22,295 nt of DNA from Ectocarpus siliculosus (taxonomy: Eukaryota > Sar > Phaeophyceae > Ectocarpales > Ectocarpaceae): contig FN648413.1 in the NCBI GenBank assembly GCA_000310025.1, forward strand, positions 1-22,295, in the 5' to 3' direction. The notes under the pieces were generated by a model. It saw nothing but the letters and a program-made list of their open reading frames with translations. It searched no databases and was not told the origin of the DNA. A program made the position numbers and the translations under genes. Below, one piece after another: positions 2,322-21,520 of the stretch. Within the stretch, counting starts at the first letter, position 1. Every line of letters begins with the position of its first letter.

Positions 2322-5300
2322 TCACTTCTTCTTGGTGACAGAGGCGATCAACGAATCGATCGTCTTGCCCACTTTCGCGTAGTCGGACTCGTTGCACTGT
2401 GCGGTTATCGTCGCAAGTTGCCCCTGCTCCGGGAAGAGAACCCACATAGTCTGCGGGAAAAAACAAGACATGGTTGTTGTTAATGCGGGGTTAAAAAAGA
2501 CAATTCCATGGTATCTGTTGGCGCGGGAAAACGCGACACCATGGTATTTGTTGATGCCGGAAACCACCCAATACCATGGGGTTTGTTGGTTCGGGATCAG
2601 CACACAATACAATGGTGTTAGTCGATGCGGGAAAACACAATTCCCACCGTGGAATTTCTTGAAGCGGCAAAAAGGAGGGGTTGGGGGTTGGGGTTGGGGG
2701 GCTTAAGGAACGCAAAGGAACGGAGAGGGGAGGAAGTGAGGAGGCGTTTGGCGGGAAGGAACACGTGAAGTACGCTCGGGTTATTCAAAACGAAAAAACT
2801 CAGACCCCCGTTTCCCCGATTACTTGCCTGGCTGTGCGGCGATGCTAATCAAACACACATATATATATATATACACACATCCGCCCGTCCCCCTGTGGGT
2901 AGGGTCCTTTGGCTTGTAGAAAGCGTGTTCGCGGATTGTATCCCGCTGTGAGACTGACGTCTTATCATTGGTCAGCCGGGTACGTAGCGCGGTCGATGCT
3001 ACAAGTAAAGCCCAGGTATGTGCCCATTTTTTCTCCCACTCACTGCTGTAAGGACTTCAACACATCCCCTTGGACTATTTTGGTATTATCTCGAACGAGT
3101 AGTCTTTCCGTGTGTGAATGCTTCCAAAAACAAGACACACAAAACATATCCCGCGTAACTCCCTTGTGCGTAGAGGCCTTTGACTAGAAAGCGTGTTCGT
3201 GTTCTGTATCCCGGTGCCAGACTGACGTCTTTTCATTGGTCGGCCGGTCAGCGCGGTCGATGCTACCCCAGTATCCCGCCGGCGTTTCTCCCGCCTACTG
3301 CAAAGACTTTCAACGCCCCCCGTGCGACTGGCTGTGTTTATATCTCCAACGGGTAGTCTTTCTATCATTTATGGTGTACTGCTGTGTTCTCTGAAAAAGA
3401 CACAAAACCAATCCGTATTTTTCTGACAAAAAAAACGAACGGTATTTTCTGAAAAAAAAACACAAACCCAATCCGCGTACCCCCCCCCCCCCGTTGTTCT
3501 GACCTTGATGTGCTTCTCCGGGCGGCCCTCCTGATCGACGATGTAGTCGTACACGTAGGAGTTCTTGTAGGTGTACGACTCCAACATCCTGCTCGAGACG
3601 CCGCTAGCCTCCGGAAGCACGGTCTTGCTAACTTCGTCCAGAGTACCGAATGAACCTTTTCGTTTTTATCAAGGGAGGACAGGTGGAGGGACACAGCAAA
3701 AACACACGCGTAGCAAGATTATACGATCTGAGCGGAGATTGCTTTGTTGTTGTCGCTGCGGGAAGCACGGTCTTGCTCGCTTCGTCAACGGCAACGAATG
3801 GACTTCTTGTTTGGGGGGGGCGAGGATGGCGGGGGGAGAAACGAGGTGACCACAGGTGAACATACAAAATTACACACAGAGCAAGCAAGATATACTATAT
3901 TTTGTCTTCGTTGCTTCGGGAACAATTCTACTACAGTACCGAATGAACCTTAAAGTTTTGGGGGGCGTTGATGACGGGTGCGTAGAGAAATCAGGTAATC
4001 GCTGACGCAACCAAGACAAAAATGCACGGGTAGCAAGGTACACGATTTTTTCCGCACGGTATATCACCCCCACGACTTATAAGACGCTTTGAAAACATGT
4101 GCTTGTGGTATATTATGGTATATACCGTATACGACACAAGATAACACACCCCCTAGACCGATTTTCAAACCTGGATTACGCCACGACGAAGAGCATGCAC
4201 GAACGAAACGATACATTTTCGGAAATTTCTCGAGGAGATGGTTCCAACGCCGCCGTTTTCGGCGCTCTGAACTCTTCCTGCTGATGAGAAATCGCTTACC
4301 CAAGGATGAGAAATCGCTCACCCAAGGTAGTGAAATCACTTACCTAAGGTAGTGAAATCGCTTACCCAAGGTAGTGAAATCGCTCACCCAAGGTAGTGAA
4401 ATCGCTTACCCAAGGTAGTGAAATCGCCTCGTGCGGGCGTGTAGGCCACAAAGGCGTTTGCCCCGGGAGTCGTCGGGCTCGTGTACACGACTATCTTCCG
4501 CCTCCCCGAAATCTCGGCGTCGTTCCTCTCCCACCCGTCTGGGACCTGTTGCGAAAAGCGGAAGAAAAAAAAAATGACCGTGTGGAGGATTCCTGTCGGA
4601 AGCATAACCAACCACTGTGCACATACAAAGTGCAGTCGTGGTTCCGTTTTAGCGGTCCATATTGTCAAAAAGTGTTGTAACCGTTACTGAGGGCATCGCC
4701 GCTAAACCGGATTGGCAGTAGTTTGACTACCGAGGTGCAGCCGTGCCACGAGATCTTGGGACCACTATTGAGGGCATCCCGTAAACAGGGAAGGAACTAA
4801 CCGCCAACACCGGGACTTTTTTTTTTTTTTTTTTTCTTCACTTCAAATCAGCGCTCACAGCACTAGGTGCCGTTTATTCCAACCCGTGGTCACACAGAAG
4901 AGCCTCTCTTCTACCCTCCCCTCCTGCGGTACTTCGCCTTCAATTTTTAATGCGAGAAGAGTTCAGCACTCTCTTCCCTCTGTGTACACACGAACTAGCG
5001 CTATCCACTTGGCCAGGAGCGGAAGCGAGAGAACTGTATAGGAAGATAAGATCCATCCCTCTGTGTACACACGAACTAGCGCTATCCACTTGGCCAGGAG
5101 CGGAAGCGAGAGAACTGTATAGGAAGATAAGATCCATCGTGGTAACTGGCCATCGGGAGAGTGGCCAGAAATGCACCGTTGAGACCTTTCTCTTCCAGAG
5201 TCTTTGGCCGCTTGCCGAGGGTAGAGGCGGAGAGGCTTCGACTCTCCTCCCTCTGCCCTCTGGTCACTACCTCTCTACCTCTCTCTCCTCTCTGCATCTC

Positions 5301-8300
5301 ACGAAAGGAAGCTAGCCGCCCTTGGGGTGGGAGAATGCTGCGACGGCACTGGCCCCTGCCTCTGACGGGAGCCTGTGTTCTCGCTAGTACTTTGTTATTC
5401 AGTAGATAGAGAAGCGTATTTAAAACAAGCAAAACAGAACGGAGCACGCAGAGCACGGCGGCATTCCCCGTTGCAGCCATGAATCACGACTAAACGCTGA
5501 GCTATAGTATTTTTCTGTCTGGAATATAGAACGCAGTTGGAGGCACCTATTCGGCAGAACCTGTTGTTGTTGTCGTCGTCGTCGTTGCTCATTGTCGTTG
5601 TCTTCACAAGGGCCACCTTTCCCATCTCTGCTCAGCACCTTCATTTCATGTCCGCGCTGGCCCAACTGATGCGCACGCCTTGCCACACGTTCCAACTACA
5701 ACCCTACCATACAGGGGCACCTTACCATACGCGCGAGTTTACCCCACGTGGAAACTCCGCCCTCCACGAAAATCCTCCCCCCTCGCGACGTTAACTAACC
5801 TCAACAAATATGAACAAAATGGTAGATATCGGGGGGGGAAACTAACATGTGGCGAGTATCATTCCACTCGGACACTCACGTCGAAATTGAAGCCCAGGGC
5901 ATCGTCCGTGAACGTCTGCGCGTTGCCAGCCGCGGGCAGCAGAGCGAAGCCGGCGGCGGCGGCGGCCGCCGCTGCCCCCGCGCCGCGGAGAAAGTCTAGG
6001 CGGCTTGCTGCCGCTGCCGAGGAAGAGGCGGTTTCTCCTCTTCCCGTTGTCGGTGGGGGCGGTGACGTTACGGCCGGTGGGCTCGAGGGTACGAAGGCCT
6101 GCGGGTGGTTGGGGGTCCGAGAGGTAAATAATAAGCATCCCGTCCGACTTGGGTATATCTCGAGCGGGTGTTGTAATCTTTTTAGAGAGTACACATAATC
6201 TCACAGAAAGACCACCCGTTCGAGACAATACCACAGTCGAAGGAGATGTGTTGAAGTCTTTACAGTGAGTGGGTATTGTAATCTGTTCTGTGTGTGTAAT
6301 TATTTTTCCCAACAAGGGATCGATCAGTTCCCTGGTGTGGTGTTTCAAAACCGTATACCCCCAGCCCTTTGAAGGCTTCGTTGCCGGCGAGGTATGTATA
6401 CGGTCGCTGATTGATTGGGGTTGTGTTGCAAAATGGTCGGATGTCCGGGCTGCGGGCGGTCCGATGCATCCTTGGTATGGGCTCGATGGCCGGTTGGTGT
6501 GGAACCTGAAAGGCTAATAATCCTGTTGAGATGTGACCTTGTGATGGGTGCATCCCTGGCAATCGCCACTACTTTGTAATGTACGATGATCCGATTACTG
6601 AATCAACATACCGAAGAGTATTCCGGTATGTTCTCCTTAGGTAAATACCTACGTACTGTTGTTTACAGCATTACAAATACTAATGCCTGACATTGAGTAT
6701 TCCAACAGGAACCTCTATATGAGGTAAATGGCTACATCTATGCCAACAGGTTGGGAGGTTAACATTGGTATGGATTGATTGGCCATATCGTGTGCGGATA
6801 AGGTAGCATTGGGATGTACATTGTAGCGATTGTGAGCAGGAGAGGAGGGAGGCGACGGAACCCGCTTTTTTGCGTAGTGTGAAGGAGCATCGAGGTTGAA
6901 GATGAAAAGCCAAGGCAAGTCAAGTCCTGTCGACGATGCCATGTGTGACGGCGGTGCACCATGGAGTGTTCCACGGAAGCCCACGGAATTCCATGACCGA
7001 GGGTAAGAAGTGCAAGAGTCAAGTCTTGCCGACGACGCCATGACCGACTCTAAGGTACACAACGAGGTGCAAGCCGAAAGATGGATGCCTTGGTAAACGG
7101 GAGCTTCATAACAGTTGTTGTCAAACCCTTAGCGGTGTGGCAGTGATTGAGCACACCTGGTAGGTGCCGTTAGGTGTTACAGTTTTACGTAGAGCGGCGC
7201 CGGCGGTTGGCCCCACTTCCCCACCTCGTAGGCAAGCATTACTCTTTTCTTGTTAGAGGCGGAGATATGGCACCCCCCCGCTACATAGACCGACAGCGCG
7301 ATTGATCCACAGCCAAGGGGGTGCGGAAACAGCGCGATACGTCGGTGGAAAGCTGTTGATGAGATGTGTCCAACAACCACCATTTACGGTGTTGGCACAA
7401 TAAGCTTGGTTGTGGAGCAATCGAGCTTTGAAAGTCGGTCTGGGGGGGGGTGCCATCTCTCCGCCTCTTACGGAATACCACGGTACGGTATTCGGTACGG
7501 TACAGACAATCTTGGTTGTGGAGCAATCGAGCTTTGAAAAACGGTCTGGGGCGGGGTGCCATCTCTCCGCCTCGTACGGTACGCTTCGCTCTCTTGTAGA
7601 TGTAACAGAGATATTAGCCTTCATTTGTTAGGAGGATGTTTCTTTTGAGCGGGTCGGCACGTCGGCGCCCCTACTGCCGGACGACAAACAAGGCCACCAT
7701 CTTACTTCTGTCGGAGCAAGGCCCTCTCTGCCCCGATGATACCATGTTCAAGGAACGGGGCTAGCGGGTGTCCTTTCTGGAAAGCGAGCCGGCCCTAACA
7801 GCGAATGGTGAGTCCATCCAACAGCGCACGCCATCTACAACCGAACGGATTGCACGCAATCAGCGCCACGAGGCGGAATGACCCTGCCAGAGTACGCGAT
7901 AAAACCCCATCGGGCGACGCCATAGCTAAGCGGGGGGTTATGTGTACAGTAATGTCAACGGCCAACCCGGGAAAAATCGGGCGACTTGCGAGAGGGCGGG
8001 GAGTTGGCATCATGCGAACGGCCAATTTCGCATGTTTTCAAGTTCAACTTTTCTGCTCGATTCTCTCAGGAAATTGGCGTGCTCGACGGGAAACTTTTCC
8101 TCAATCTTTTCAAAGCCTGCCACCACGTAATGCGTTCGTGTGTGTGTTCCAGAAGGTCCAAATACAAAACACGATCTGCATCTCGGCAAAGAAGAGAGAG
8201 AGAGAGAGAGAGCGAGCAGCTGCTGGGGAATCTCGCCGCATCATGAACAAACAACATGTGTCGCCGAGTCAAAGCTTAAGCTTTGTCGGAAGCGGAGATG

Positions 8301-8363
8301 ACTGACCTGAACACCGGAAACAAGGGTCACGCACGCGGAACCCAACGCTCTGATCTTCACCAT
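2322..8363 (-). CDS. PsbP-domain thylakoid lumen protein, five exons, 230 residues
   Basis: Exons in coding order: 8363-8307, 6098-5880, 4545-4410, 3655-3504, 2450-2322. Together they total 693 bases and all phases agree. Residues 1-19 (MVKIRALGSACVTLVSGVQ) are a signal peptide. The transit peptide starts at Ala20-Phe21 (AFVPSS), the usual start in red-lineage secondary plastids. Residues 50-79 (SRLDFLRGAG, an alanine-rich core, LLPAAGNA) form a thylakoid-transfer signal, and the mature protein probably starts at Gln80. The mature 151 residues read as a PsbP domain: GFNFD-VPDGWE near the start, then VVYTSP, FTTLGSFGTLDEV, NSYVYDYIVD and a C-terminal GQLATITAQC. PsbP relatives work in the lumen at photosystem II or in photosystem assembly; the exact paralogue cannot be assigned. 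The Tat-like motif has R-L where R-R is usual. Exon 1 was chosen because its phase-0 donor (CAG|GTCAGT) precisely completes the signal-peptide/AFVP junction. Confidence 0.88.
2451..2660 (-). repeat. Tandem array built from the intron 4 acceptor
   Basis: On the minus strand about five units read TTTTCCCGCATCAACA followed by a-ACCATGGTATTG. They are diverged, with a period of about 38-45 bases. The last unit runs directly into the true 3' splice site TTTTTTCCCGCAG|ACT, so the polypyrimidine tract and acceptor belong to the repeat unit. Confidence 0.75.
2906..3370. repeat. Dimeric repeat of about 230 bp, with an inverted relative at 6170-6275
   Basis: Copies lie at about 2906-3133 and 3172-3367. 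Both contain 'tagaaagcgtgttcg', 'agactgacgtctt-tcattgg', 'gcgcggtcgatgctac', 'aagactt-caac' and 'gggtagtcttt'. The second half is found again in inverted orientation within intron 1 of the same gene at about 6170-6275. This suggests a dispersed element of unknown type. No protein or terminal inverted repeat was seen. Confidence 0.7.
3740..3960 (-). repeat. Diverged copies of the exon 4 start inside intron 3
   Basis: The first bases of exon 4 and its acceptor read on the plus strand as 'ggaagcacggtcttgct' followed by 'aacttcgtccagagtaccga'. A close copy lies at 3746-3800 (ggaagcacggtcttgctcgc, then ttcgtcaacggcaacgaatg). A second, weaker copy is at 3908-3955 (ttcgggaacaattctactac, then agtaccgaatgaacctt). 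The copies sit only on the intronic side of the splice site. Confidence 0.65.
4125..4282 (+). mobile_element. Truncated copy of the TA-target inverted-repeat element (family A)
   Basis: It starts CCGTATACGACACAAGATAA directly after a TA, as the complete copy at 13861 does. It continues with the same accgattttcaa, gaacgaaacgatac and acgccgccgttttcgg blocks. It stops where the 22-bp splice-site array begins, so the right inverted repeat is missing. It is non-coding and was probably mobilised in trans by a transposase not present here. Confidence 0.75.
4283..4428 (-). repeat. 22-bp tandem array made of the exon 3 / intron 3 splice junction
   Basis: Six full 22-bp units (starts 4283, 4305, 4327, 4349, 4371, 4393) plus a 14-base partial in exon 3. 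On the minus strand each unit reads GATTTCACTACCTTGG|GTAAGC, with the exon end to the left of the bar and the donor to the right. The true splice falls at 4410/4409 in the unit nearest the exon. The other five units keep a usable donor (GTAAGC or GTGAGC). The unit at 4327 has TTAG|GTAAGTG, closer to consensus than the real site. Confidence 0.9.
4546..5879 (-). other. Intron 2 of the PsbP-domain gene
   Basis: The donor GAC|GTGAGT is at 5879 and the acceptor CAACAG|GTC is at 4546, in phase 0. It contains a 19-base T run at 4817-4835, a perfect 81-bp tandem duplication, and a GTC/GTT-rich stretch at 5561-5600. No other gene was recognised. Confidence 0.85.
4976..5138. repeat. Perfect tandem duplication, period 81 bp, two copies
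   Basis: The block starting ccctctgtgtacacacgaac and ending ataagatccatc occurs twice with an offset of exactly 81 bases. I see no difference between the copies. Identity implies a recent duplication, or an assembly artefact. Confidence 0.92.
7249..7473 (+). mobile_element. Inverted-repeat MITE-like element, family B
   Basis: The left end reads TTAGAGGCGGAGATATGGCA and the right end TGCCATCTCTCCGCCTCTTA followed by cgg. These are inverted copies of each other. Just inside lie a diverged ccgacagcgcgattgatcc and caatcgagctttgaaagtcg, also inverted. The internal part shares 'gaaagctgttgatgagatgt' and 'accaccatttacggtgttgg' with the copy at 21249. There is no coding capacity. The left target site is diverged. 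Confidence 0.75.
7474..7579 (+). mobile_element. Half element of family B next to the full copy
   Basis: Only the right half is present: cttggttgtggagcaatcga, gctttgaaaaacggtctggg, then the terminal gccatctctccgcctcgtac and gg, followed by TA. It directly abuts the full copy, as if by unequal exchange or partial re-insertion. Short cggtacggta repeats occur at the junction. Confidence 0.65.
8193..8212. repeat. GA dinucleotide microsatellite
   Basis: An uninterrupted (GA)10 run within intron 1 of the PsbP-domain gene, just downstream of its first exon. Confidence 0.9.
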
Positions 8364-8573
8364 GACGAGAAGGGGTGCCTTTGCAATGATGGCTGTCTCC
8401 TAACACGATCTCTGCTCGTGGTCAAGGGGGGCAGTGTTGGCCTCGGGGGCGACGCCAAATGTTCTTTGAAAACGGATGGGGGTGACGCAGTAGTGCCTCG
8501 CTGCCCCACGCACGATGGATCTGATCTATCTGTGGATGCTGCCCAGTAGCTACACTGACTGTGCGCGCGCTCC
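8364..8573. promoter_or_regulatory. Divergent intergenic spacer, likely bidirectional promoter
   Basis: These 210 bases separate the start codons of the minus-strand PsbP-domain gene and the plus-strand DEAD-box helicase gene. They must contain both 5' untranslated regions and at least the core promoters. I see no clear TATA box. The spacer is GC-rich with a G run near 8426-8431 and has ggtgacgcagtag near 8481. The assignment follows from gene positions, not from a recognised motif. Confidence 0.6.
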
Positions 8574-9254
8574 ATGGCAAATCATTGGCGAGCAGCAGTC
8601 GTCTTGACAATGCTGAGCGCTCTGAGGTCCAGCAGGGCCTTCCTGCCGTCGCCTGCGGGCCGCGCGGGCCGCAAGCTGTCGGCACGCGGTGGAGTTGTTG
8701 TTGCAGCGGACTGCTGCACACGCTCTGCGGCTACAACCGCAGCCTGTTTCCGGAAAGCTCGACACAGCAGCAGCAGCAGCAGCAGCGAGGCCTGGGCGGA
8801 GAGACATGGCGCGCTGCAGGCGTCCTCGCGAGGGATTCTCACGTCGGCGACGAGGTTGTCGGCAGCGGCTGGCGCGGTGAACCCGACCTCTCGCACGTCG
8901 TCCACAACTCTTGAAGAGGTACGTAGCACCGCCGTCCGTCACAGCGACGTGGAGGGAGGGCCGCTGCCGAGTCAGATGGCTGTAGCATATTGTATCAACC
9001 GAAACATGACGCAGTGGGGCACCTTGGATGAATAGAAAGGAGGAGTCTTTGGCTCTAGTATTGTCGTCCGTGGCAACGAGAGCAGCGAGGTTATCCGCTC
9101 GGTAAAGCTCACGCGAGGGTATCTACAAATATATACGTTCTTTGTCCGAAAACCCAAGTTTTGGCGGTGTTCTGTTTCTCCTGCGGCTCTGCGGTCTCCC
9201 CTTCGCCACTCAAACCGCTAGCCCGCATGTTGATGTTGCCGTTACAAATGTACC

Positions 9255-9287
<33 letters not shown>

Positions 9288-12200
9288 ACTATAACGCAGC
9301 ATCCAAGTTCCAGTTTGTTTTTGCTCATGGCGTTCGAAATTCGAAACGCTTTTGTCTATTCTCAGCCGTCGACTGCTGTTGCTGCGGTAGGGTGACATGT
9401 AGATGTCAAATCCCCCTGGACCGATTCTCCAATGGATGTCGATTGCTCCGCAGCAGAGGAGAGGGGCGGTGCCGAAAGTGGCGGCCTTGGAAGCATCCCG
9501 TTGAGAGCTTTCCGAAGACGTATCGGTTGATTTATCCATCCTCTTCGTCGTCGAGTAATCGAGATTTGCGATCCGGTCCAGGGGGTGTGGTATCTTACGT
9601 CATGTTACCCATGGTTATCATGTGTCACGTCCTTGCGGTTGCACTATTATATTTACTGTTGTGCACGACGACAAGCAGCGCAGGTACATCCGGATGCCTT
9701 CCATAAGTGCGGGTATGTGGCAATCGCTTTCACCCGCACAACAGTATAAGCGGGAACCTGCACTATATTACCGGGAACCCGCACTTTTCAATGTGTCATC
9801 TGTCTTGGTTACAGTATCACCCGCACTTCGAAGCCAAGCACAATATACTTCGAGTATCGTCTACCATAAACCAAGAAACCAATCTCACAAACCAAGAAAC
9901 AAAAATGAACCAACACCCCCGCAATATTTATTGGTTAATGATACAACCCGCGCTATACAGGGGGCAACGCCGCCTGCCCATAGTCTACTTGTCAGCCTGC
10001 CGCTGCTGCTATAATGATGTGTCGCGCCCCGCTGTTCCTCATTGCCGTTGCGGGTAGATCACGACCGGGCAGTTCAACGACCTCGACCTGTCGAAGAACA
10101 CGCACGCCGCGATCTCGGACGTTCTGGGGTACGCTAACATGACCAAGGTCCAGGAGCAGTCCATCCCGGTCTGCCTCACAGGTGCGGGTGAAACCGGACC
10201 GCCTACTAGGATTTTAAGAGTATCTACTACAATAGAAAAATAATAGGGAGAGCGCACGCAGAACCTAACCCTAACCCTAACCCTAACCCTAACCCCAAAG
10301 CACGGATTCAATACTTTATCCCATATGTTTGCTTAATCAATTTTGCTGCATAGACTGCTGGTGTGACCCTAAACCCTAACAATCTTACTCTCACCCTAAC
10401 CCTAACCTATGTGCAGACTTTTCGACGGTAGGCTATGATGCAGACAACACCGCAAAGTATGAGGTGGACGAACTATGCCCGTTCGAAAGGGTTCTGCACA
10501 TGTACTTCGAAAGAAGGGTAGACGATGTACCCAACAGCCTTGAGGGTAGACTATGTACGCACTACTCTGCTGTATTACCTGTCTGCATAGTCATGGAGAG
10601 CTGCAGCAAAGAGCGCTATGATGCCCTTGTTGCGCTGTCCCTCAGTCCTCACCGCCATGGCCTCAACTTGGAACTGTCTGCGTGTTTACGTTTTTTGGTT
10701 TGGTTTTCGCTTTCTGCAGGCGTTGACGTCCTCGCCAAGGCTAAGACGGGTACCGGCAAAACAGTCGCGTTCTTGATCCCCGCCATCGAGCGGGCGGCAA
10801 AGAGGGGTTTCGGGAAGGGCGTGTCCGCGCTCATCATCAGCCCCACGCGCGAACTCGCCCAGCAGATCGCCGTCGAGGCCCAGCAGGTGTGTATGCCTGC
10901 CTGAGTCTGTGTTTTTTTGTTTCTTGTATTTGTTTTTGTGTACTTAATTAGCATCGGCCACTTACCGGCTCACCAATGGAAGGTCAGTCTCTGTACGGCG
11001 TGTGTGTCTGTGTCTATGTGTGTCTTTGTTACTGACATCGACCGCGCTAACCGGCTGACCTATGAAAATACCTCAGTTTCGAGTGCGTCTGCGCGCGAAA
11101 CGACTTGGATGAGGACGCGCAATAGATAAAACTCTCGAGGACGCGTGGTCAATGGTCTAACCGCTAAGGCATGCAAAACATAAGAGTACGCCCCCCCCCC
11201 CCCCCCCCCCCNNNNNNNNNNNNNNNNNNNNNNNNNNNNNNNNNNNNNNNNNNNNNNNNNNNNNNNNNNNNNNNNNNNNNNNNNNNNNNNNNNNNNNNNN
11301 NNNNNNNNNNNNNNNNNNNNNNNNNNNNNNNNNNNNNNNNNNNNNNNNNNNNNNNNNNNNNNNNNNNNNNNNNNNNNNNNNNNNNNNNNNNNNNNNNNNN
11401 NNNNNNNNNNNNNNNNNNNNNNNNNNNNNNNNNNNNNNNNNNNNNNNNNNNNNNNNNNNNNNNNNNNNNNNNNNNNNNNNNNNNNNNNNNNNNNNNNNNN
11501 NNNNNNNNNNNNNNNNNNNNNNNNNNNNNNNNNNNNNNNNNNNNNNNNNNNNNNNNNNNNNNNCCCCCCCCCCCCCCCCCCCCCCCTCCCTTGCCCCCCT
11601 CCCCTGCCACCCTCCACTCTCCCTGTTGCGTGCTCCTCATCCTTATCCGCACGATGATGGTGGTCTCCAATGGTCGTGGTATCTCCGATGATGGCGGTAT
11701 CTCCGATGGTGGCGGTGTCTCTGATTGTGGTGGTATCTCCGATGGTCGTGGCATCTCCGATGGTCGTGGCATCTCCGATGGTGCTGGTATTGTAAACCAT
11801 GGTGACGGATCGATCTCCGCAGATCATGTCCTTTCACAGGCTGAAGCTCATGTGTTCCGTTGGGGGCGTCAACGTCAACCGGGATCTGAACCAGCTCAAC
11901 TCGGGGGCCCCGGACATCATGGTGGCGACGCCGGGAAGGTAAAGACGAGGTCTATACCCCTTACCCATTCCAGATGTTTTGTTGTTGTGGGCGTTGGTGG
12001 TGGTGTTTTTTTGCCTTGGTTTCTTTCACGGGACTGCTTTGGTCTGTTGAAGTGAAGAACCGAGGATGACTTCATAGTGGTGTTTTCAACCTTGCCTGAC
12101 TCGCGAAGCTCCTTGATCTGTAGGAGAACCAACGATCACTTTGCCTTGACTCGTTGAGGCTCCTTGATCTGTTGGAGAACCAACGACTTCATTCAGTACT

Positions 12201-15200
12201 ACTCCTAGTGTTTTTCGACCTCGCCTTACTTATTCCCTCGCCTAATCCTCCAGGCTCCTTGATCTGATGGAGAATCACGGCTTGGGGCGAGACATGAGGG
12301 ACCTCGACACCCTTGTTTTCGACGAGGCTGACCAACTCCTCGAGATGGGCTTCCGCCCTGCCATCGAGAACATCCTCAGGAACCTGCAAGCGAGCAAGGT
12401 GACAAGAGGAGAAATATTAAATGTATTTTTTTATTTACAGTGATTTTTTGGTGTGTAGAGGAAAATTTTGTAGCATACTTCCCGTGAACCGAAAGTGAAG
12501 AAATTTCCGGGAAATTTCAGCAACACACACGTACGTACACACCCGGTTGATCCTCAGCCGACCGACGATCTTCCTGTTCTTATCCGTGCCATTCTCATCC
12601 AACTGTACCTTTTGACTGATGTATTGACTGATGACCTCTTTTTCCGTGTCGTTGGCATCCAATTGTGCCTTCTGACTTAGACCTCTTCGTGCGTATCGTT
12701 CTCATCCAATTGTACCCTCTGACTGCTGCCTCTTTCATGCGTATCGTCCTCCTCCAATTTTACCTTCAGACTGCTGCCCTTCTTTTACCCTTGCCGTTCT
12801 CATCCTATTGTACCTTGTGACTGCTGTACCTCTTGTGCCCTTGCCGCTCTCCACCCAACGCGGTACCTTCTGACTGCTGTACGTCCTTTCGTGTTGATTG
12901 GGTTGTCATCCCTGTACACCTTTCTCATCGAATCGTGCCTACTGCTGTACAACCTCTTTTTTGTGTTCCTGCTTTTGTTGGTCGCGCCTGCCGTGTCTTG
13001 GCGTGGCATGGCGCGCCAGACCTATCGGCAGACCCTAATGTTCAGCGCAACCATGCCCGGAGACGTTCAGGCCATCGCTAGCATCGCCATGAAGCCAAGC
13101 TACGAGGTCGTCGACTGCGTTGGGGAGGAAGAAAACACCCACCAGCACGTCCCGCAGAAGTGAGTGGTACAGTACGTCTTCCATGGGTTTTTCATTGTAC
13201 GTTTATGTTCACCAGCACATTCCGCAGAAGTGAGTGGTCGGGGAGGAAGAAAAACACCCACCAGCACGTCCCGCAGAAGTGAGTGGTACAGTACCTCTTT
13301 CATGGTCTTTTCCATGGTACGTTTTATGTTGACCAGCACATTCCGCAGGAGTGAGCGGCACCGTTTTCCATGGTACATTTTTGCTAGCATCAATGTGTGC
13401 CTCTTTCCCGCACTAGTGAGTGGTACCCTGTTCCACGGTCTTTTCCATGGTACGTTTATGTTCACCAGCACATTCCGCAGGAGTGAGTGGTACGGTTTGT
13501 CATGGTACAAATTTTCTAGCAAATGTTTGAGTGCCTCTTTCCCGCACAAGTGAGTGGTACCCTGTTCCATGGTACTGTACGCTCGCGTACCTTTTGTTAA
13601 TGGTACGCTTGTGTAAATAAGAGTTCCCACCAGAACACTCAGCACATCCGCAGAAGTGCAGGGGTTCCCACTGAGGCGTTCCGCAGAAGTGGTACCGTTT
13701 TCCGTGGCACGTGAGTTCCCACCACGACGTCCGGCATACGTGAGTGGTTATATGCACGCCTTTGCCCTTGGTAGCTATGTAGGGGTTCCCACCGAGGCGT
13801 TCCGCAGAAGTGGTACCGTTTTCCATGGTACATTGAGTTCCCTCCACCACGTCCTGCATACCGTATACGACACAAGATAACACACCCCCTGGACCGATTT
13901 TCAAGCTCGATTACTCCACGACCAAGAGGATGTACGAACGAAACGATACGTTTTCGGAGAGATCTCGACCAGCAGGCTTCAACGCCGCCGTTTTCGGCAC
14001 CTCTACTCTCTCTGCTGTTGATAAGTCGAGCTTTGAAAATCGAGCCAGGGGGTGTGTTATCTTGTGTCATATACGGTACGCAAGGGTTACGCCTATGCCC
14101 TTGGAAGTTATGTGGGTAGTTTTGTAATAGGGGTTCCCACCAACACGCCGCCACGCGAAAGCGTGTGGTACCTTTTTTCCATGTGTGTATGTGTACTTGA
14201 GCAGTGGCACAAGGTGGTGTGGGCTATGCAACCCAGATAAAAGCGACGCATAGAGTGCAGAGAGGCGAGCGGAGTGGCCTAGACTATCTGTCGTTGACTT
14301 TTATTGGCTTGCGGACCCTTCGGGTCCATTTTATTTTCGTATACCTTTTTTTGGGTAAGTTGGCCTGTGACCACCGGAATCGATCCCGTCAAGTGCTAGA
14401 CTAGTACGGACAGAAGAAGGTACCGGGCAGAAAGAACGGAACGGCTTTTAATGTGAAGACAACAACAACAACATGCTGACACGTTGGCTTGCGGACCCTG
14501 CGGGGCCATCTTATTTGAGTATACCTTTTTTTTTGGGTGAGGTAGCGTGTGACCACGGAATCGCTCGGTAAAGTGTCTGATCAGTACGAACAGAAGAAAG
14601 TACTGGGCCGAGATATCGGAACGGTTTTTAATGTGATGACAACAGCAACAGGAACATATTTTGATGGTGTTGTGTGTTTGATCAGTAAGGACAGATGAAG
14701 GTACTGGGCAGAGAGATCGGAACGGTTTTTATTGTGAAGACAACAGCAACAGCAACACATTTTGATGGTGTTGCGTGGCACGTTTGTTTTTCCGTCTGTC
14801 TGTCCGTTGATCGTTCTCCCGACAAAAAACAAACAAAAAACAAACAGGTTTGCCGTGGTGCCGATGGCGGAGCAAATACCCCGACTCTTGGCGACGATCC
14901 TCAAGGCTAAGGAGGACCCCGACCACAAGATCATCGTGTTCTTCGTGGCCGCGAGAATCGTACAGGCAAGTCAGTCGTTTTATTTGTGGTCAATCGAGGG
15001 TACAGCAGTTGTCGTTGATGGGGGTGAGGATCGTACAGGCAAGTCAGTCGTTTTATTTGTGGTCAATCGAGGGTACAGCAGTTATCGTTGATGGGGGTGA
15101 GGATCGTACGGGCAAGTCAGTCGTTTCATTTGTGGTCAATCGAGGGTACAGTACAATTAGTAGTAGTAGATTGTGGGGATGTTTGGACTTTGTTTTATAT

Positions 15201-18200
15201 TTATGGCCGATCGAAGGTACAACAGTTATCGTTAATGGAGGTGAGGATCGTACGGGCAAGTTTGTCGTGTTATGGCCAATCGAGGGTACAACACCAGTAA
15301 CAGTAGTTGATAATGGGGATGAGGATCTTCCAGGAGAGTCGTTTTATGGTCAATCGAGGGTACAACAGTTCGGTTGACGGGGATGGGGATCGCACAGGCA
15401 AGTGAGTCGTTTTATGGCCAATCGAGGGTACAGCACGTAGTAGTATAGTAGTTGATTATCCGGATGTTCCGACTTTGTTTTAAGATTGTAGTACCATAGT
15501 GTACCGCACAATCATTGTGGGACTGCCGTGTTTATCACATGCAAGTCAGTCGTTTCCTGGTCAATCGACGGTACAACAACAGTTGATGTAGGTTGAGGGG
15601 ATGAGGGTTGTCCGGGCGTTCTTTTGTGGTTAATCGAGGGTAAAACAGCAACATTACTTGATGATGGGGGATGTTTCGGCCTACTATGTAGTTTAACGAG
15701 TCTAGTCGCAAATCCATTTTGCAAATCCTCTGGGGCTCTGTTTCTGTAGATGGCCGTTGTCCAACCACAAGAATAGATGAGCAACGAAGTCACAACATGA
15801 TGTCCAACTTGCGTTTCTGCGGTTCCTCTTTTTGCTACCCACGACGATAAAAACCAACACAGCTGCACGCCGAGCTATTCACCCAGATGGGAGTAGACGT
15901 GCTCGAGACCCACTCGCGGAAGTCGCAGGCGGCCCGGACCCGCGTCGCGGAGGCCTTCCGCAATGGCAAGGGTCAAATCATGTTCACCAGCGACGTGTCG
16001 GCGAGAGGAATGGACTACCCCGACGTGTCTCTCGTCATTCAGGTGGGGGTGTTACTCATACTCATAGCCGTGCATGCCGTAGTCGTTAGACCATTAGTCA
16101 TGCGTCCTCTCGAGAGGACTGAGCATTGTTCCCACGGGACCGATCACCGATGGTCAATCGTTCTTTCCTGGGGGGGGTGGAGGGGGGGGGGTGGGGTACT
16201 CATAGTCGTGCAGGCCGTAGTCGTTAGACCATTGACCTCGCATCCCTACAAAGCCGGGACGGAGCACGCCGGGTTCTCACCGGAACAGGCGCTCACATCA
16301 CCAAGCGCGAAGCGCCGTGAGGTATTCGGCGAGTCGCATCAAGGGTGCGCTGCATCCTGCTGATGGTGCTCGGCATCTTTAGGGGGGTGGCTTTTTTTCA
16401 GGGTTGTTCACGGAGTAGAATCGCTCCGCGGAGCTTTTTTTTTCGTTTGGAATTTTTCACGGAGCGGTTTTTGCCTTTTGTAATAGTCAAGGAGCGGAGC
16501 GGTTAAACCCAGTGGAAAAGTCTCACGGAACGGAGCGGGATTGCGTGTTGATGCTACGGACCGGAGCGGCGCGGTTAATCAGCAGTCCGATTTTTTCACG
16601 AACCGCGCATAACCGAGGCCTTGAGGACGGTGCACCGTGAGAGAAAACCCCGAAATCATCCGGATATCCGTACAAATGTCGTCGTCGTCTGCATTCTCGT
16701 CTGTCTCACTTTCCGCTTGTCCTTGGTTTTTTGCCCCGCCCACTCGGTTCTCTTTGTGGAAGGTCAGTCTCCGGTCCGATCCGATTCAACCTTGCTTTAT
16801 TTTGCGGTAAATACGCGTTTTCCTTTGTGAAAGGTCGGCGTCCCGTCCGATGCCAACTCGTGTTGCGGTCATTTACGCGGTTTCTTTGTGGAAGGTCACT
16901 CTCCCGTCCGATTCAACGTTGCCTTTTTTTTGCGGCAACTACCCGATTTTGTGATAGGTCGTCTCCAGCCCGATACTAATTTTTTTTTGCGGGAATTACC
17001 CGGTTTTTCTTTGTAGAGCGTCGGTCTCCCGTCCCGTGCTAACTTGTTTTGCGGTAATTTCGCGGTTTATTTGTGGAAGGTCGGTCTCCCGTCGGACACT
17101 AACCAGTACGTTCACCGCCTGGGCCGTACCGCGAGAGCTGGGAAGGGAGGCAGCGGTCTCTTGGTCCTTGCGGAGGCTGAGAAGGGATTCATCAGGGAGG
17201 TACGTTGTTGGATGTTGCTGTTGGATTTTGCTGTTGGTTGTTGTCAATGTTGTTGTTGTTGTTGTTGTTGTTGCTGTTGCTGTTGCTGTTGCTGTTGTTG
17301 TGAGTGATGCTGTTGGTGTTGGTGGTGGTGTTGGTGGTGGTAGGGGTGGGGGTATTAGCTTGACGTGGACAGCCAGCCTGGCCAGTCTGCAGCACTTTTC
17401 CCCTATTCTACATGTACATCCACTCTGTCAAGACAGCAGCGTTGTTGGTTTTACGATACAAGTTCAACAATCCCCAATGTCAACACCGGCGGTTTGCACC
17501 TATGTTTTCGGTTTTTACAAAGTTCTCTATCACAAACGTCCAAACTAGTGCTTTTTTTTTCGAGTAGTTTTCACTACCCACTATTGACTCGGAGAAACGT
17601 GTGTTTTTGTGGTGTGGTGTTTTCGCGTTTTCTTCTTCGTTGTTTTTTTTTCGCGTATATTTGTTCTTCTGTCGACCATTTGTCACTCCTCCCTCTTTAC
17701 TCCGAGAACCGTGCGGTTTACTGTCGTGTTTTTTTGTCGCGTGTTGTACTTCTATTTGTTTTTGCAGGTGGGAGATCTCCCACTGGAAGAGGATGAGCGA
17801 ATGGATCCGGGCACTATGATAGAGGCCCGGCAGATGGTAGCGGGAGCGGTACACCGCGTAGACCCGGTGACCGTCAGCAAGGCTTACCAGGCGTGGCTGG
17901 GGTGAGTGTGAGATTGCCGTCGATGACTATTCTGTTGTTGCTGTTGGTGGTGTTGCTGTTGGCGTGAGATTGCCGTCGATGACTATTTTGTTGTTATTGT
18001 TGTTGCTGTTGGCGTGAGATTGCCGTCGATGACTATTCTGTTGCTATTGTTGTTGTTGCTGTTGGCGTGAGATGGCCGTCGATGACTACTCTGTTGTTGT
18101 TGTTGTTGTTGCTGTTGTTGCTGTTGGTGTTGCTATGCTAATGATTTGACGCCTGGCTACTTCTTCAAATTTCCGTTTCCATTTCTCGACATTCTCCTTT

Positions 18201-18791
18201 TTATGTCTACCCTGTTGCTGTCGTTGCTGCTGTTGTTGTTGTGCTAAACGAAATGCGCTTTGACGCCTGGCTACCATTAAAATTAGATTGCCTTTCACGT
18301 CTCACAATTTTCCTCCTTCGATGGCGTGTGTTTTTTTATCTCCTTCACTCCATACCAAAAATAGTTTCTACAAGGGTGCCCTCAGGAGGCTGAGGTGGAC
18401 ACCCGGAACCCTCGTAAGCTCGGCCAACTCTTGGGCGGTGGATGTCTGGGGCCTGGCGTCCCCGCCCCCCCTCCAGGCCAGAACTATCGGGAAGATGGGC
18501 TTGAGAGACGTTGACGGTCTCGTGATCGACAGAACCCCGCAAGAGCCGAGGGGAGGGGGGGGAGGTCGTGGCCGCGGAGGGGGGGGTGGTAGGGGGGGAC
18601 GCGGCGGTGGTGGGCGCGGGGGGGGGAGGGGTGGGGGGGGAGGGGGCCGGGGACAGCGGCGCAATATGAGCGGGGGGGGACGAGGAGGCGGCGGGGAAAA
18701 CGGTTACCGGAGAGGGCCGGGGAGGGGGGGGGGTGGTGGTGCGGGGTCTGGCGTTGGCAGGGGGGGTGGGGGGCGAGGCGGTATGCGGTAG
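8574..18791 (+). CDS. Plastid-targeted DEAD-box RNA helicase, Mss116/RH26-like, eleven exons, 671 residues
   Basis: Exons: 8574-8918, 10058-10181, 10720-10886, 11823-11938, 12254-12398, 13020-13159, 14848-14965, 15863-16042, 17080-17199, 17768-17901, 18365-18791. They total 2016 bases with all phases consistent. The N-terminus is a signal peptide ending ALRSSRA, then FLPSPAGR, a red-lineage plastid presequence. A Ser7 run lies in the leader. Core motifs in order: Q motif (F121, GYANMTKVQ 139-147), I AKTGTGKT 164-171, Ia PTRELAQQI 198-206, GG 226-227, Ib TPGR 248-251, II DEAD 274-277, III SAT 308-310, IV IIVFF 374-378, [11 protein letters not shown] 427-436, [12 protein letters not shown] 457-466. 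AYQAWLGFY and IGKMGL mark the C-terminal extension seen in Mss116-like plant RH25/26/31. The tail from about 592 is Arg-Gly-Gly repeats that would bind RNA. The expected role is ATP-dependent remodelling of plastid RNA. Intron 7 uses a GC donor. A match to transcript data would settle whether an extra exon lies in intron 1. Confidence 0.92.
8763..8786 (+). repeat. AGC microsatellite inside the coding exon
   Basis: Seven consecutive AGC codons encode seven serines in the presequence of the helicase. Length changes in whole codons would alter only the transit peptide spacer. Confidence 0.9.
9255..9283. repeat. CTG trinucleotide run
   Basis: About nine to ten CTG/GCT triplets in intron 1 of the helicase gene. 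Confidence 0.9.
9390..9610. mobile_element. Diverged inverted-repeat element related to family A
   Basis: The left end GGGTGACATG and right end CATGTTACCC are inverted copies. Inside, tccccctggaccgat on the left faces atccggtccagggggtgtgg on the right. The internal ttccgaagacgtatcgg and gtgccgaaagtggcgg blocks resemble family A. A target duplication is not clear. The copy is older than the one at 13861. Confidence 0.65.
10182..10719 (+). other. Intron 2 of the helicase gene
   Basis: ACAG|GTGCGG donor and TTTCTGCAG|GC acceptor, phase 1; the split Gly codon joins PVCLT-G-VDVLAK. It contains two telomere-like tracts and loosely repeated 'agggtagac-atgtac' blocks at 10425-10560. Confidence 0.88.
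10262..10407 (+). repeat. Interstitial telomere-like CCCTAA tracts
   Basis: About five CCCTAA units lie at 10262-10296 and a second, broken set at 10367-10380 and 10393-10407. The complementary TTAGGG is a telomere repeat type known in many eukaryotes including algae. They sit in intron 2, well inside a gene, so they are interstitial and not a chromosome end. Confidence 0.88.
11128..11190 (+). repeat. Dispersed tRNA-like fragment with A-box-like sequence
   Basis: The block ctctcgaggacgcgtggtca followed by atggtctaaccgctaaggca resembles the 5' half of a tRNA, with TGGTCAATGG in the place of the A box. It runs into poly-C. Related copies lie in reverse orientation at 16050-16110 and 16190-16250. 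No B box or complete cloverleaf was found, so it is not called a tRNA gene. A tRNA-derived SINE head is one reading. Confidence 0.5.
11212..11563. other. Assembly gap of 352 N flanked by poly-C
   Basis: About 21 C bases precede the gap and about 23 follow it. The gap probably reflects a long C homopolymer or C-rich repeat that stopped sequencing. Its true length is unknown. Confidence 0.97.
11660..11790 (+). repeat. 18-bp minisatellite running up to the intron 3 acceptor
   Basis: Seven or so copies of ggtcgtggcatctccgat with small changes. The last similar block is cggatcgatctccgcag, which is the true 3' splice site. The acceptor may thus have arisen from a repeat unit. The resemblance covers only about 8 to 10 bases, so this is weaker than the other cases. 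Confidence 0.7.
11939..12253 (+). other. Intron 4 of the helicase gene with two copies of the exon 5 start
   Basis: AAG|GTAAAG donor, CTCCAG|G acceptor, phase 2. Exon 5 begins gctccttgatctgatggaga. Near copies lie in the intron at 12107-12131 (gctccttgatctgtaggaga) and 12158-12184 (ggctccttgatctgttggag). Both lack a correct AG with a pyrimidine tract. Confidence 0.88.
12399..13019 (+). other. Intron 5 of the helicase gene with a repeat of about 55-60 bp
   Basis: AAG|GTGACA donor, GCGCCAG|ACC acceptor, phase 0. From about 12590 to 12960 some seven diverged units share 'ctcatccaattgtacctt' and 'tgactgctgtacctctt'. A second possible acceptor at 13031 (CGGCAG|ACC) would remove four residues (TYRQ). 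The upstream one is preferred because RQTLMFSAT is the usual family wording. Confidence 0.8.
13122..13860 (+). repeat. Repeats copied from the exon 6 / intron 6 junction
   Basis: The junction block accagcacgtcccgcagaag followed by tgagtggtac is repeated at about 13211, 13260, 13332 and 13463, with shorter relatives (cccgcac-agtgagtggtac) at 13408 and 13541. The copy at 13240-13294 reproduces about 54 bases, including 38 bases of coding sequence from ggggaggaag onward, with one extra A. All retain GTGAGT or GTGAGC. Later units (13640-13860) change to gttcccacc-aggcgttccgc with gcagaagtgg. Confidence 0.88.
13861..14076 (+). mobile_element. Complete inverted-repeat MITE-like element, family A, TA target
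   Basis: This 216-bp element is bounded by TA on both sides (13859-13860 and 14077-14078). The left end CCGTATACGACACAAGATAA is matched inverted by TTATCTTGTGTCATATACGG on the right, with one mismatch in 20. The repeat continues through cacaccccctgg and an imperfect gattttcaagctcgatta. It has no coding capacity. TA duplication fits the Tc1/mariner superfamily, but the end sequence alone does not prove it. The empty site survives at 13733-13742 in the neighbouring repeat unit. Confidence 0.88.
14306..14770 (+). repeat. Repeat of about 180 bp, two copies and a partial third, with a hairpin
   Basis: Copies start at about 14306 and 14486 (ttggcttgcggaccct) and a partial one at about 14670. Each has a run of T, tgtgaccac-ggaatcg, tagtacg-acagaagaa-gta and then aacaacaaca-type DNA. 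The first carries an exact inverted repeat ggaccc-ttc-gggtcc. Confidence 0.75.
14957..15440 (+). repeat. 73-bp array made of the exon 7 / intron 7 GC-donor junction
   Basis: Units start at 14957 (the true junction), 15030, 15103, 15247, 15324 and 15389. The first three are spaced exactly 73 bases apart. Each begins ATCGTACAGGCAAGT or a close variant, followed by gtcaatcgagggtacagca and gttgatgggggtgag. The GCAAG donor core is kept in units 1-4 and 6; unit 5 has lost it. Confidence 0.9.
14966..15862 (+). other. Intron 7 of the helicase gene, GC-AG type
   Basis: The donor reads GTACAG|GCAAGT, the standard form of a GC-AG intron, and the acceptor ACACAG|CTG. Phase 0 gives [19 protein letters not shown], which aligns without a gap to the family pattern. 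An alternative GT six bases upstream would delete Val-Gln and is less likely. Confidence 0.82.
16043..17079 (+). other. Intron 8 of the helicase gene
   Basis: CAG|GTGGGG donor and GTGGAAG|GTC acceptor, phase 0, joining [19 protein letters not shown]. The donor side has two tRNA-like fragments in reverse orientation (16050-16110 and 16190-16250) separated by a G-rich tract. The middle (16400-16620) has cggagcgg repeats. The acceptor side has a large array. Confidence 0.87.
16050..16255 (-). repeat. Two tRNA-like fragments, reverse orientation
   Basis: Read on the minus strand, both copies contain atggtctaacgactacggc-tgcacg-ctatgagta and end in C-rich DNA, as at 11128-11190. One (16050-16110) also has the ctctcgagaggacgcatgac start. 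The shared structure at three places indicates a dispersed repeat family. Confidence 0.65.
16750..17098 (+). repeat. Array made of the intron 8 acceptor and exon 9 start
   Basis: Six units of about 60-75 bases with starts near 16754, 16826, 16886, 16948, 17010 and 17071. Each carries ctttgtggaag, then gtcggtctcccgtccgat, then a T/G stretch with tttgcggtaattacgcggt. In the last unit, GTGGAAG|GTCGGTCTCCCGTC is the real splice site plus the first 14 coding bases of exon 9. Units at 16754 and 16886 keep GGAAG|GTC, so they are credible decoy acceptors. Confidence 0.88.
17200..17767 (+). other. Intron 9 of the helicase gene
   Basis: GAG|GTACGT donor, TTTTTGCAG|GTG acceptor, phase 0. It opens with a long GTT/GCT trinucleotide stretch (17205-17305) and later is T-rich up to a good pyrimidine tract. 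No gene was seen inside. Confidence 0.88.
17902..18364 (+). other. Intron 10 of the helicase gene with donor-proximal repeats
   Basis: GG|GTGAGT donor and AAATAG|T acceptor, phase 2, joining AYQAWL-G-FYKGAL. Four units start at about 17902, 17962, 18012 and 18065. Each holds g-gtgagattgccgtcgatg, then actattctgttgttg and GTT-rich filler. The last three read GGCGTGAGA where the first, real junction reads GGGGTGAGT. Confidence 0.87.
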
Positions 18792-20989: not shown

Positions 20990-21520
20990 CTGCTGCCTCA
21001 TTACTCTGCTCCGCTTCATAGTTGAAGGAATAAACAGCCGCTGTCTCGTCACTCTCCGCTTCATACGAGGGAATAAACAGTCGCTGTCTCGTCACTCTCC
21101 GCTTCATACGAGGGAATAAACAGCCGCTGTCTCGTCACTCTCCGCTTAATACGAGGGAATAAACAACCGCTGCCTCATCACTCTCCGCTTAATACGAGGG
21201 AATAAACAGTCGCTGCCTCATCACCCTCCCTTCATAGTTGAAGGAATACCATAAGACGCGGAGATATGGCACCCCATCTAGACCAGCTGATCTAGACCGA
21301 CTTCCAAAGCTCGATTGCTCATAACCAAGGCGGTACAGAAAGAGACCGACACGTCGGTCGAAAGCCGTTGATGAGATGTTTACTTCCAAACCACCATTCA
21401 CGGTGTTGGCATAAGGAACAATCGAGTTTGAAAGTCGGTGTAGGGGGGGTGCCATCTCTCCGCCTCTTACGGTAAACAGCTGCTGCCTCATCGCTCTCCA
21501 CTTCATCCTTCTCGGTAGGC
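20990..21520. repeat. 43-bp tandem array interrupted by an inserted element
   Basis: The block taaacagccgctgtctcgtc followed by actctccgcttcatacgagg starts at 21031, 21074, 21117, 21160 and 21203, exactly 43 bases apart. A diverged unit precedes it near 20992. The unit at 21247 is split by a family B element and resumes at 21473. No coding role is evident. Confidence 0.9.
21249..21472 (+). mobile_element. Complete family B inverted-repeat element inserted at TA
   Basis: This 224-bp element lies between TA (21247-21248) and TA (21473-21474). The left end CCATAAGACGCGGAGATATG and the right end CATCTCTCCGCCTCTTACGG are inverted copies with three differences in 20. Removing the element and one TA restores ggaaTAaacag, the exact sequence of the neighbouring 43-bp units, which proves the insertion and the 2-bp target duplication. 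The internal sequence matches the copy at 7249. Confidence 0.9.

Follow-up and report, generated by a model that had tools for sequence, protein, structure and literature searches.

Two genes at the start of scaffold C61

The window analysed here is a stretch of 22,295 nucleotides (nt) of the brown alga Ectocarpus siliculosus (contig FN648413.1, positions 1 to 22,295), the start of the 251,689-base scaffold C61. It carries two predicted intron-containing genes, one for a PsbP-domain protein and one for an MSS116-like DEAD-box helicase (Table 1). An earlier note on this DNA had pointed to introns filled with tandem copies of their own splice junctions, and such copies, which include the exon edge as well as the splice site, are present in 5 of the 14 introns of the two genes.

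The 11 helicase exons join into a single open frame of 2016 nt, that is, 671 codons and a stop, whose product aligns at 97% identity with a protein of Ectocarpus sp. 12 AP-2014 (600 residues submitted). Judged by their splice dinucleotides, the helicase introns are GT-AG, the sole exception being intron 7, which has a GC donor at window position 14966. The PsbP-domain protein matches the Pfam PsbP profile with E = 9e-15, in a search made without its 5' exon, and shares 93% identity with an Ectocarpus sp. CCAP 1310/34 protein; comparison with solved structures gave no convincing relative (best E = 0.1). The alignment of this protein with six homologs has no gap at the intron 3 junction, where the window encodes DFTTLG / SFGTLDEVSK. 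The exon boundaries predicted in both genes are supported by homologous proteins, and the total of fourteen introns given in the earlier note, ten in the helicase gene and four in the PsbP gene, holds. Homologs P0002 (helicase) and P0124 (PsbP) have the consecutive gene numbers g3849 and g3850 in eukprot; should the two belong to one genome, this would hint that the genes are a conserved pair.

Table 1. Genes, exons and junction-associated repeats, in window coordinates (TRF, Tandem Repeats Finder)
Feature	Position	Strand	Evidence
MSS116-like DEAD-box helicase gene, 11 exons	8574..18791	+	continuous frame; Pfam DEAD and Helicase_C; 97% identity to Ectocarpus sp. protein
Helicase exons	8574-8918, 10058-10181, 10720-10886, 11823-11938, 12254-12398, 13020-13159, 14848-14965, 15863-16042, 17080-17199, 17768-17901, 18365-18791	+	
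PsbP-domain gene, 5 exons, 4 introns	2322..8363	-	Pfam PsbP; 6-homolog alignment; 5' exon found separately
PsbP exons	8363-8307, 6098-5880, 4545-4410, 3655-3504, 2450-2322	-	
PsbP intron 3 donor array, 22 bp x 6.4, includes last 18 nt of exon 3	4288..4427	-	TRF; copy list; junction p = 0.0025
PsbP intron 3 copy of exon 4 start, 43 nt, 81% identical	3761..3803	-	blastn E = 4e-7; junction p = 0.0025
PsbP intron 3 second acceptor copy, shorter	junction near 3948	-	copy list
PsbP intron 4 array, 35 bp x 5.4, ends 1 nt before exon 5, no exon sequence	2452..2639	-	TRF; matching intron read-through in P0130
Helicase intron 4, two copies of exon 5 edge	about 12108-12131, 12159-12182	+	second copy 24 nt, 92%; junction p = 0.0025
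Helicase intron 6 donor copies, 11 listed	13160..13862	+	copy list; junction p = 0.0025
Helicase intron 6 nearly exact copy, includes 41 nt of exon 6	13237-13278	+	blastn E = 1e-13
Helicase intron 7 donor array, 73 bp x 6.8, begins 13 nt within exon 7; true donor GC	14953..15435	+	TRF; junction p = 0.0025
Helicase intron 8 acceptor copies, 5 listed, with part of exon 9 edge	16745..17079	+	copy list; junction p = 0.0025
Helicase intron 9 repeat, begins 6 nt into intron	17206..17341	+	TRF
Helicase intron 10 array, 53 bp x 4, begins 6 nt into intron	17908..18117	+	TRF

Copies of splice junctions within the introns

For each junction, ungapped matches lying in the same intron and covering sequence from both the exon and the intron side were scored, with stretches of other introns, self excluded, as the null. 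With 400 draws the floor of this test is p = 0.0025, and 82 introns were scored, 13 in the window and 69 outside. In the window, a copy spanning exon edge and splice site was found at the floor for 6 of 26 junctions (5 of the 13 introns scored), against about 0.14 expected at p ≤ 0.005. These junctions are the acceptors of helicase introns 4 and 8, the donors of helicase introns 6 and 7, and the donor and the acceptor of PsbP intron 3, each at p = 0.0025. The fourteenth intron, PsbP intron 1, showed no junction-spanning copy in a separate run of 200 draws. The signal was lost once the anchor was slid 60 nt into the exons. Junction overlap in the window therefore exceeds chance, as previously claimed, and the statement that PsbP intron 3 is affected at both ends was borne out.

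The claim of at least eight such introns has to be trimmed to five full cases (helicase 4, 6, 7 and 8, PsbP 3) and two partial ones (helicase 10, PsbP 4), helicase intron 3 being dropped since its array ends 32 nt away from the acceptor; helicase intron 9, missing from the original list, joins the partial cases. In these three partial introns the array lies at or just inside the junction and contains no exon sequence. The donor of helicase intron 8 was likewise rejected as a case (p = 0.46).

A blastn search of 15 of the 16 exons, the PsbP 5' exon not being included, against the non-coding part of the window gave 16 matches of at least 32 bits, 10 of which are low-complexity (CAG or poly-G). 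Five of the remaining six are in the intron next to the exon concerned and run up to the exon edge, where they end because the queries consisted of exon letters only: 41 nt of helicase exon 6, 43 nt of PsbP exon 4, 24 nt of helicase exon 5 and, twice, 18 nt of PsbP exon 3. The sixth, in the 3' flank of the PsbP gene (1942-1993), repeats the end of its last exon at 81% identity.

The arrays supply potential competitors for the true splice sites. The true donor is the strongest GT or GC site in 9 of 13 window introns, the exceptions being helicase introns 6 (a tie), 7 and 8 and PsbP intron 3; three of these (helicase 6 and 7, PsbP 3) are the introns with donor-spanning copies, whose decoys equal or exceed the true donor. 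The nearest donor junction copies lie 22 to 73 nt away. In all six donor sets, the nearest decoy would shift the reading frame, and some later copies keep it.

Introns outside the window

For comparison, 69 introns were collected outside the window, 29 from eight of 16 intended DEAD-box loci and 40 from a 200-kb stretch of C3. The regions were picked regardless of repeats, and both flanking exons of each intron were required to be supported, by coding score or, in the DEAD-box loci, by protein hints. Two C3 introns shorter than 60 nt were excluded from the junction test (42 to 40), and the C3 gene models are gene-finder predictions with errors, so that the outside rate is rough. Two of 138 junctions, in 2 of 69 introns, were at the floor, both of them donors with clear arrays. 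One is the donor of intron 1 of a DDX3-type helicase gene (L034), with an array of 64 bp x 4 and 2 nt of exon matched; the other is the donor of PEX1 intron 7, with an array of 43 bp x 6.3 and 5 nt of exon matched. The PEX1 junction falls in a gap-free alignment with VCP-like ATPases. The DDX3 donor and acceptor were placed by hand in a linker that varies among homologs, which makes the donor less certain. Decoys among the listed copies are weaker than the true donor in 3/3 cases for DDX3 and in 3/4 for PEX1 (two lack the GT), the fourth being equal.

Junction copies are thus found in 5/14 introns of the window versus 2/69 outside (Fisher P = 0.0012). Tandem repeats with a period of at least 7 cover 14.3% of the window, versus 1.72% of the C3 stretch and 1.70% of the DEAD-box loci, the coverage of single 10-kb pieces of C3 ranging from 0 to 10.6%. 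Tandem repeats have been reported to make up 3.35% of the Ectocarpus genome, with filters that differ from those used here, and to be distributed fairly evenly across it (PMC12477816). The pattern that had been described as locus-wide is indeed present at this locus, but the same region is locally enriched in tandem repeats, and elsewhere the pattern is rare (2/69 introns).

The position of the arrays relative to the junctions was compared with random placement. Counted were multi-copy arrays whose intron had a supported junction, and an array was taken to abut a junction when one of its ends lay no more than 20 nt outside or 10 nt inside it. Left out were an 8-bp array, two-copy arrays, coding arrays, a poly-C tract by a gap and a C3 array 77 nt from an unverified exon end; an array of locus L030, about 26 nt from a single supported donor with an unsupported next exon, was added as unanchored. 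Seven of the ten arrays abut a junction, against 1.39 under random placement (P = 6e-5). The window alone gives 5/7 (P = 4e-4), a figure that is biased because the window was chosen for the pattern; the only unbiased part, outside the window, gives 2/3 (P = 0.077). Wider zones lower the significance: at 30 nt, P = 0.0036, the observed count not being raised even though the L030 array would fit. The overlap of arrays with junctions, which was to be checked genome-wide against shuffled positions, is in excess overall in this sample but short of significance outside the window.

Origin of the arrays

The reading I favour, with a probability of roughly two in three, is that the junction copies in 5 of the 14 introns stem from local tandem duplications straddling an exon end, which are tolerated since the outermost site is predicted to be the one used. 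If one breakpoint of a duplication falls in the exon edge and the second within the intron, the first donor, or the last acceptor, would stay beside an unchanged exon, and the mRNA would be unaltered provided that the outermost site is used. Since any copy added on the exon side would change the protein, later copies would build up solely within the intron, and the arrays would for that reason end at exon edges; the phase of each array would be set by selection on the exon. The tandem-repeat hot spot, whose density is observed, probably raises the rate of duplication here. The outcome, as it appears in the sequence, would be longer introns and decoy sites able to match the true one. Exon definition, aided by the exonic splice motifs of Ectocarpus, probably lets the true site win. 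Exon-end splice motifs in Ectocarpus are reported to resemble human ones, and decoy sites have been proposed as a driver of exonic splice motifs in intron-rich genomes, Ectocarpus being among those discussed (PMC4476162). Of the local duplication anchored at exon ends that had been suggested before, the part upheld for this locus is a duplication process that includes exon ends.

Four observations weigh against this straddling-duplication scheme. Strong decoys are not specific to arrays: outside the window, 12/29 and 21/42 introns hold a decoy that matches or exceeds the predicted donor in strength. The outside count of 2/138 junctions, against 0.7 expected at p ≤ 0.005, is not significant by itself. 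The excess in the window shrinks when introns of at least 450 nt are compared (5/26 junctions versus 2/52 outside, P = 0.038); the high density of junction copies is local and is partly tied to longer introns. Finally, the seven abutting arrays, where 1.39 were expected, may reflect some attraction to junctions beyond neutral placement.

The last point leads to the strongest alternative, in which duplication is actively anchored at junctions, chiefly donors, so that arrays originate at exon ends; short homology between the donor motif and similar intronic motifs could be one cause. Besides the placement statistics, this view draws on the similarity of the unit next to the junction unit, which is the closest to it in helicase 7 and DDX3, two of the five donor arrays, and near the best match in PsbP 3 and PEX1; in helicase intron 10, however, the neighbouring unit is the least similar. 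Identities to the junction unit are 0.97, 0.91, 0.78, 0.86, 0.90 and 0.85 in helicase intron 7 and 0.95, 1.0, 0.95, 0.91 and 0.86 in PsbP intron 3; no clear slope away from the junction was seen in helicase intron 10 or PEX1. Given that the outside arrays amount to 2/3 in a count otherwise drawn from a window picked for the pattern, that no mechanism is shown and that triples of the consensus donor are not enriched genome-wide, I consider active anchoring unlikely. A wider generalization, that intronic minisatellites of Ectocarpus are born at junctions, mostly donors, and grow inward, helping to lengthen brown algal introns and supplying the strong decoys that drive the unusual exonic splice-motif density of the lineage, appears slightly more doubtful still.

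That the arrays are assembly artefacts is very improbable. The scaffold does have gaps and poly-C edges, but the copies have diverged from one another, and the array of PsbP intron 4 is matched in a protein encoded on another contig: P0130 (66% identity over 113 residues, E = 2e-41) has the same last exon and a matching, diverged, array-bearing intron.

Maintenance of the arrays by selection as reserve splice sites, which the earlier note had offered as one of its two explanations, is scarcely credible. Many of the listed copies retain GT or GC, but the junction-anchored scan favours such copies, and this retention was not used as evidence of selection. A genome-wide scan (189.5 Mb, 492 contigs) for three AGGTRNGT motifs in a row, spaced by 12-42 nt, gave 6 triples, versus 33 with the reversed, 108 with the permuted and 78 with the permuted reversed motif, and hence no enrichment; among the control hits are overlapping matches, microsatellites and apparently one dispersed repeat, and the arrays of the window do not themselves fit this consensus. 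Single-motif frequencies of the donor motif and of the controls were alike in a sample. A strict triple of CAGGTRAGT gave no match, nor did its backward control, and is uninformative. The rarity of donor triples relative to all three controls, the weakness of the DDX3 and PEX1 decoys, the frame shifts caused by the nearest decoys and the failure to see the helicase intron 7 array in relatives all speak against selected reserves, and this explanation is abandoned.

The age of the introns was approached through proteins of relatives that read through a splice junction. A search with helicase exon 7 and its read-through left five of nine candidates at E ≤ 1. All five, presumably from other brown algae, exit exon 7 at the same residue and then diverge, and the next 73-nt copy is absent in the four that read at least 32 codons on, far enough to reveal it, both points being judged by eye; the fifth extends just 21 codons. 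Because relatives share the position and the array was not seen in the long readers, helicase intron 7 is probably older than its array. For this intron, the cross-species comparison that had been called for supports lengthening of an existing intron rather than gain of a new one. Two of the five proteins, P0133 and P0134, continue as AS, which is compatible with a GCAAGT donor. For PsbP intron 3, relative P0128 reads 38 codons on with no second exon-edge copy by eye. Gain of the introns by tandem duplication of an AGGT-bearing exon segment, although published as a general model with real cases (PMC4974935, PMC2891723), is the least probable explanation, since the position of helicase intron 7, far from being absent from relatives, is common to 5/5 read-through proteins, with no array seen in the four that read far enough, and since the two ends of PsbP intron 3 do not derive from one segment, its donor copies matching exon 3 and its acceptor copies exon 4. 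The earlier proposal of a route for intron growth accordingly stands for helicase intron 7, without the gain model cited with it.

Intronic minisatellites with unit length, copy number and divergence like those seen here are ordinary; what differs is that the end of the array coincides with the junction. In the potato RdRp gene, a tandem duplication over an intron-exon boundary is reported to have made a new intron (PMC4974935). As here, the duplicated segment crosses the boundary, with splice signals and exon edge, but there an intron was new, whereas here an existing one became longer, with the predicted exon-intron structure staying as it was. In human segmental duplications, variable tandem repeats likewise are multi-copy, overlap boundaries and could offer alternative sites (PMC2812944); exons were changed or introns formed there in recent paralogs, whereas here the outer site fits homologous proteins and several introns of one locus are concerned. 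The AGGT-duplication model of Rogers, as described in PMC4974935, shares the short tandem duplication that provides splice-like sites; it differs in that helicase intron 7 seemingly predates its array and that the ends of PsbP intron 3 are not one segment. NAGNAG and GYNNGY tandem sites also place repeated competitors beside the true site (PMC2423196, PMC4267661), but the spacing here is at least 22 nt instead of a few nt, and the unit includes exon sequence. Intron sliding has been published for Drosophila. No published description of junction arrays concentrated in one locus was found in a search of titles and abstract openings. The arrays are a concrete example of how an intron already present can grow from its ends and how decoys as strong as the true splice site can appear, and these introns are natural tests of how the spliceosome chooses the exon-adjacent site among near-identical neighbours.

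A search for introner-type elements, limited to 3000-4200 of the window, a stretch that does not contain the main arrays, returned a dispersed 80-bp repeat and a few short matches. The 80-bp repeat (about 4120-4200) matches dozens of places in the genome, at several of which an inverted counterpart lies no more than 200 nt away, an arrangement resembling the termini of a small DNA transposon, and a similar stretch is seen by eye near 13860-13940. PsbP intron 2 contains a perfect 81-bp tandem pair (4975-5138), and helicase intron 2 contains telomere-like CCTAAC repeats (10264-10295 and 10393-10407). A gap bordered by poly-C lies in helicase intron 3 (11191-11590), and the 10 kb to the right of the window consist of N only. 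Outside both genes, an array of 43 bp x 5.3 occupies positions 21009-21236.

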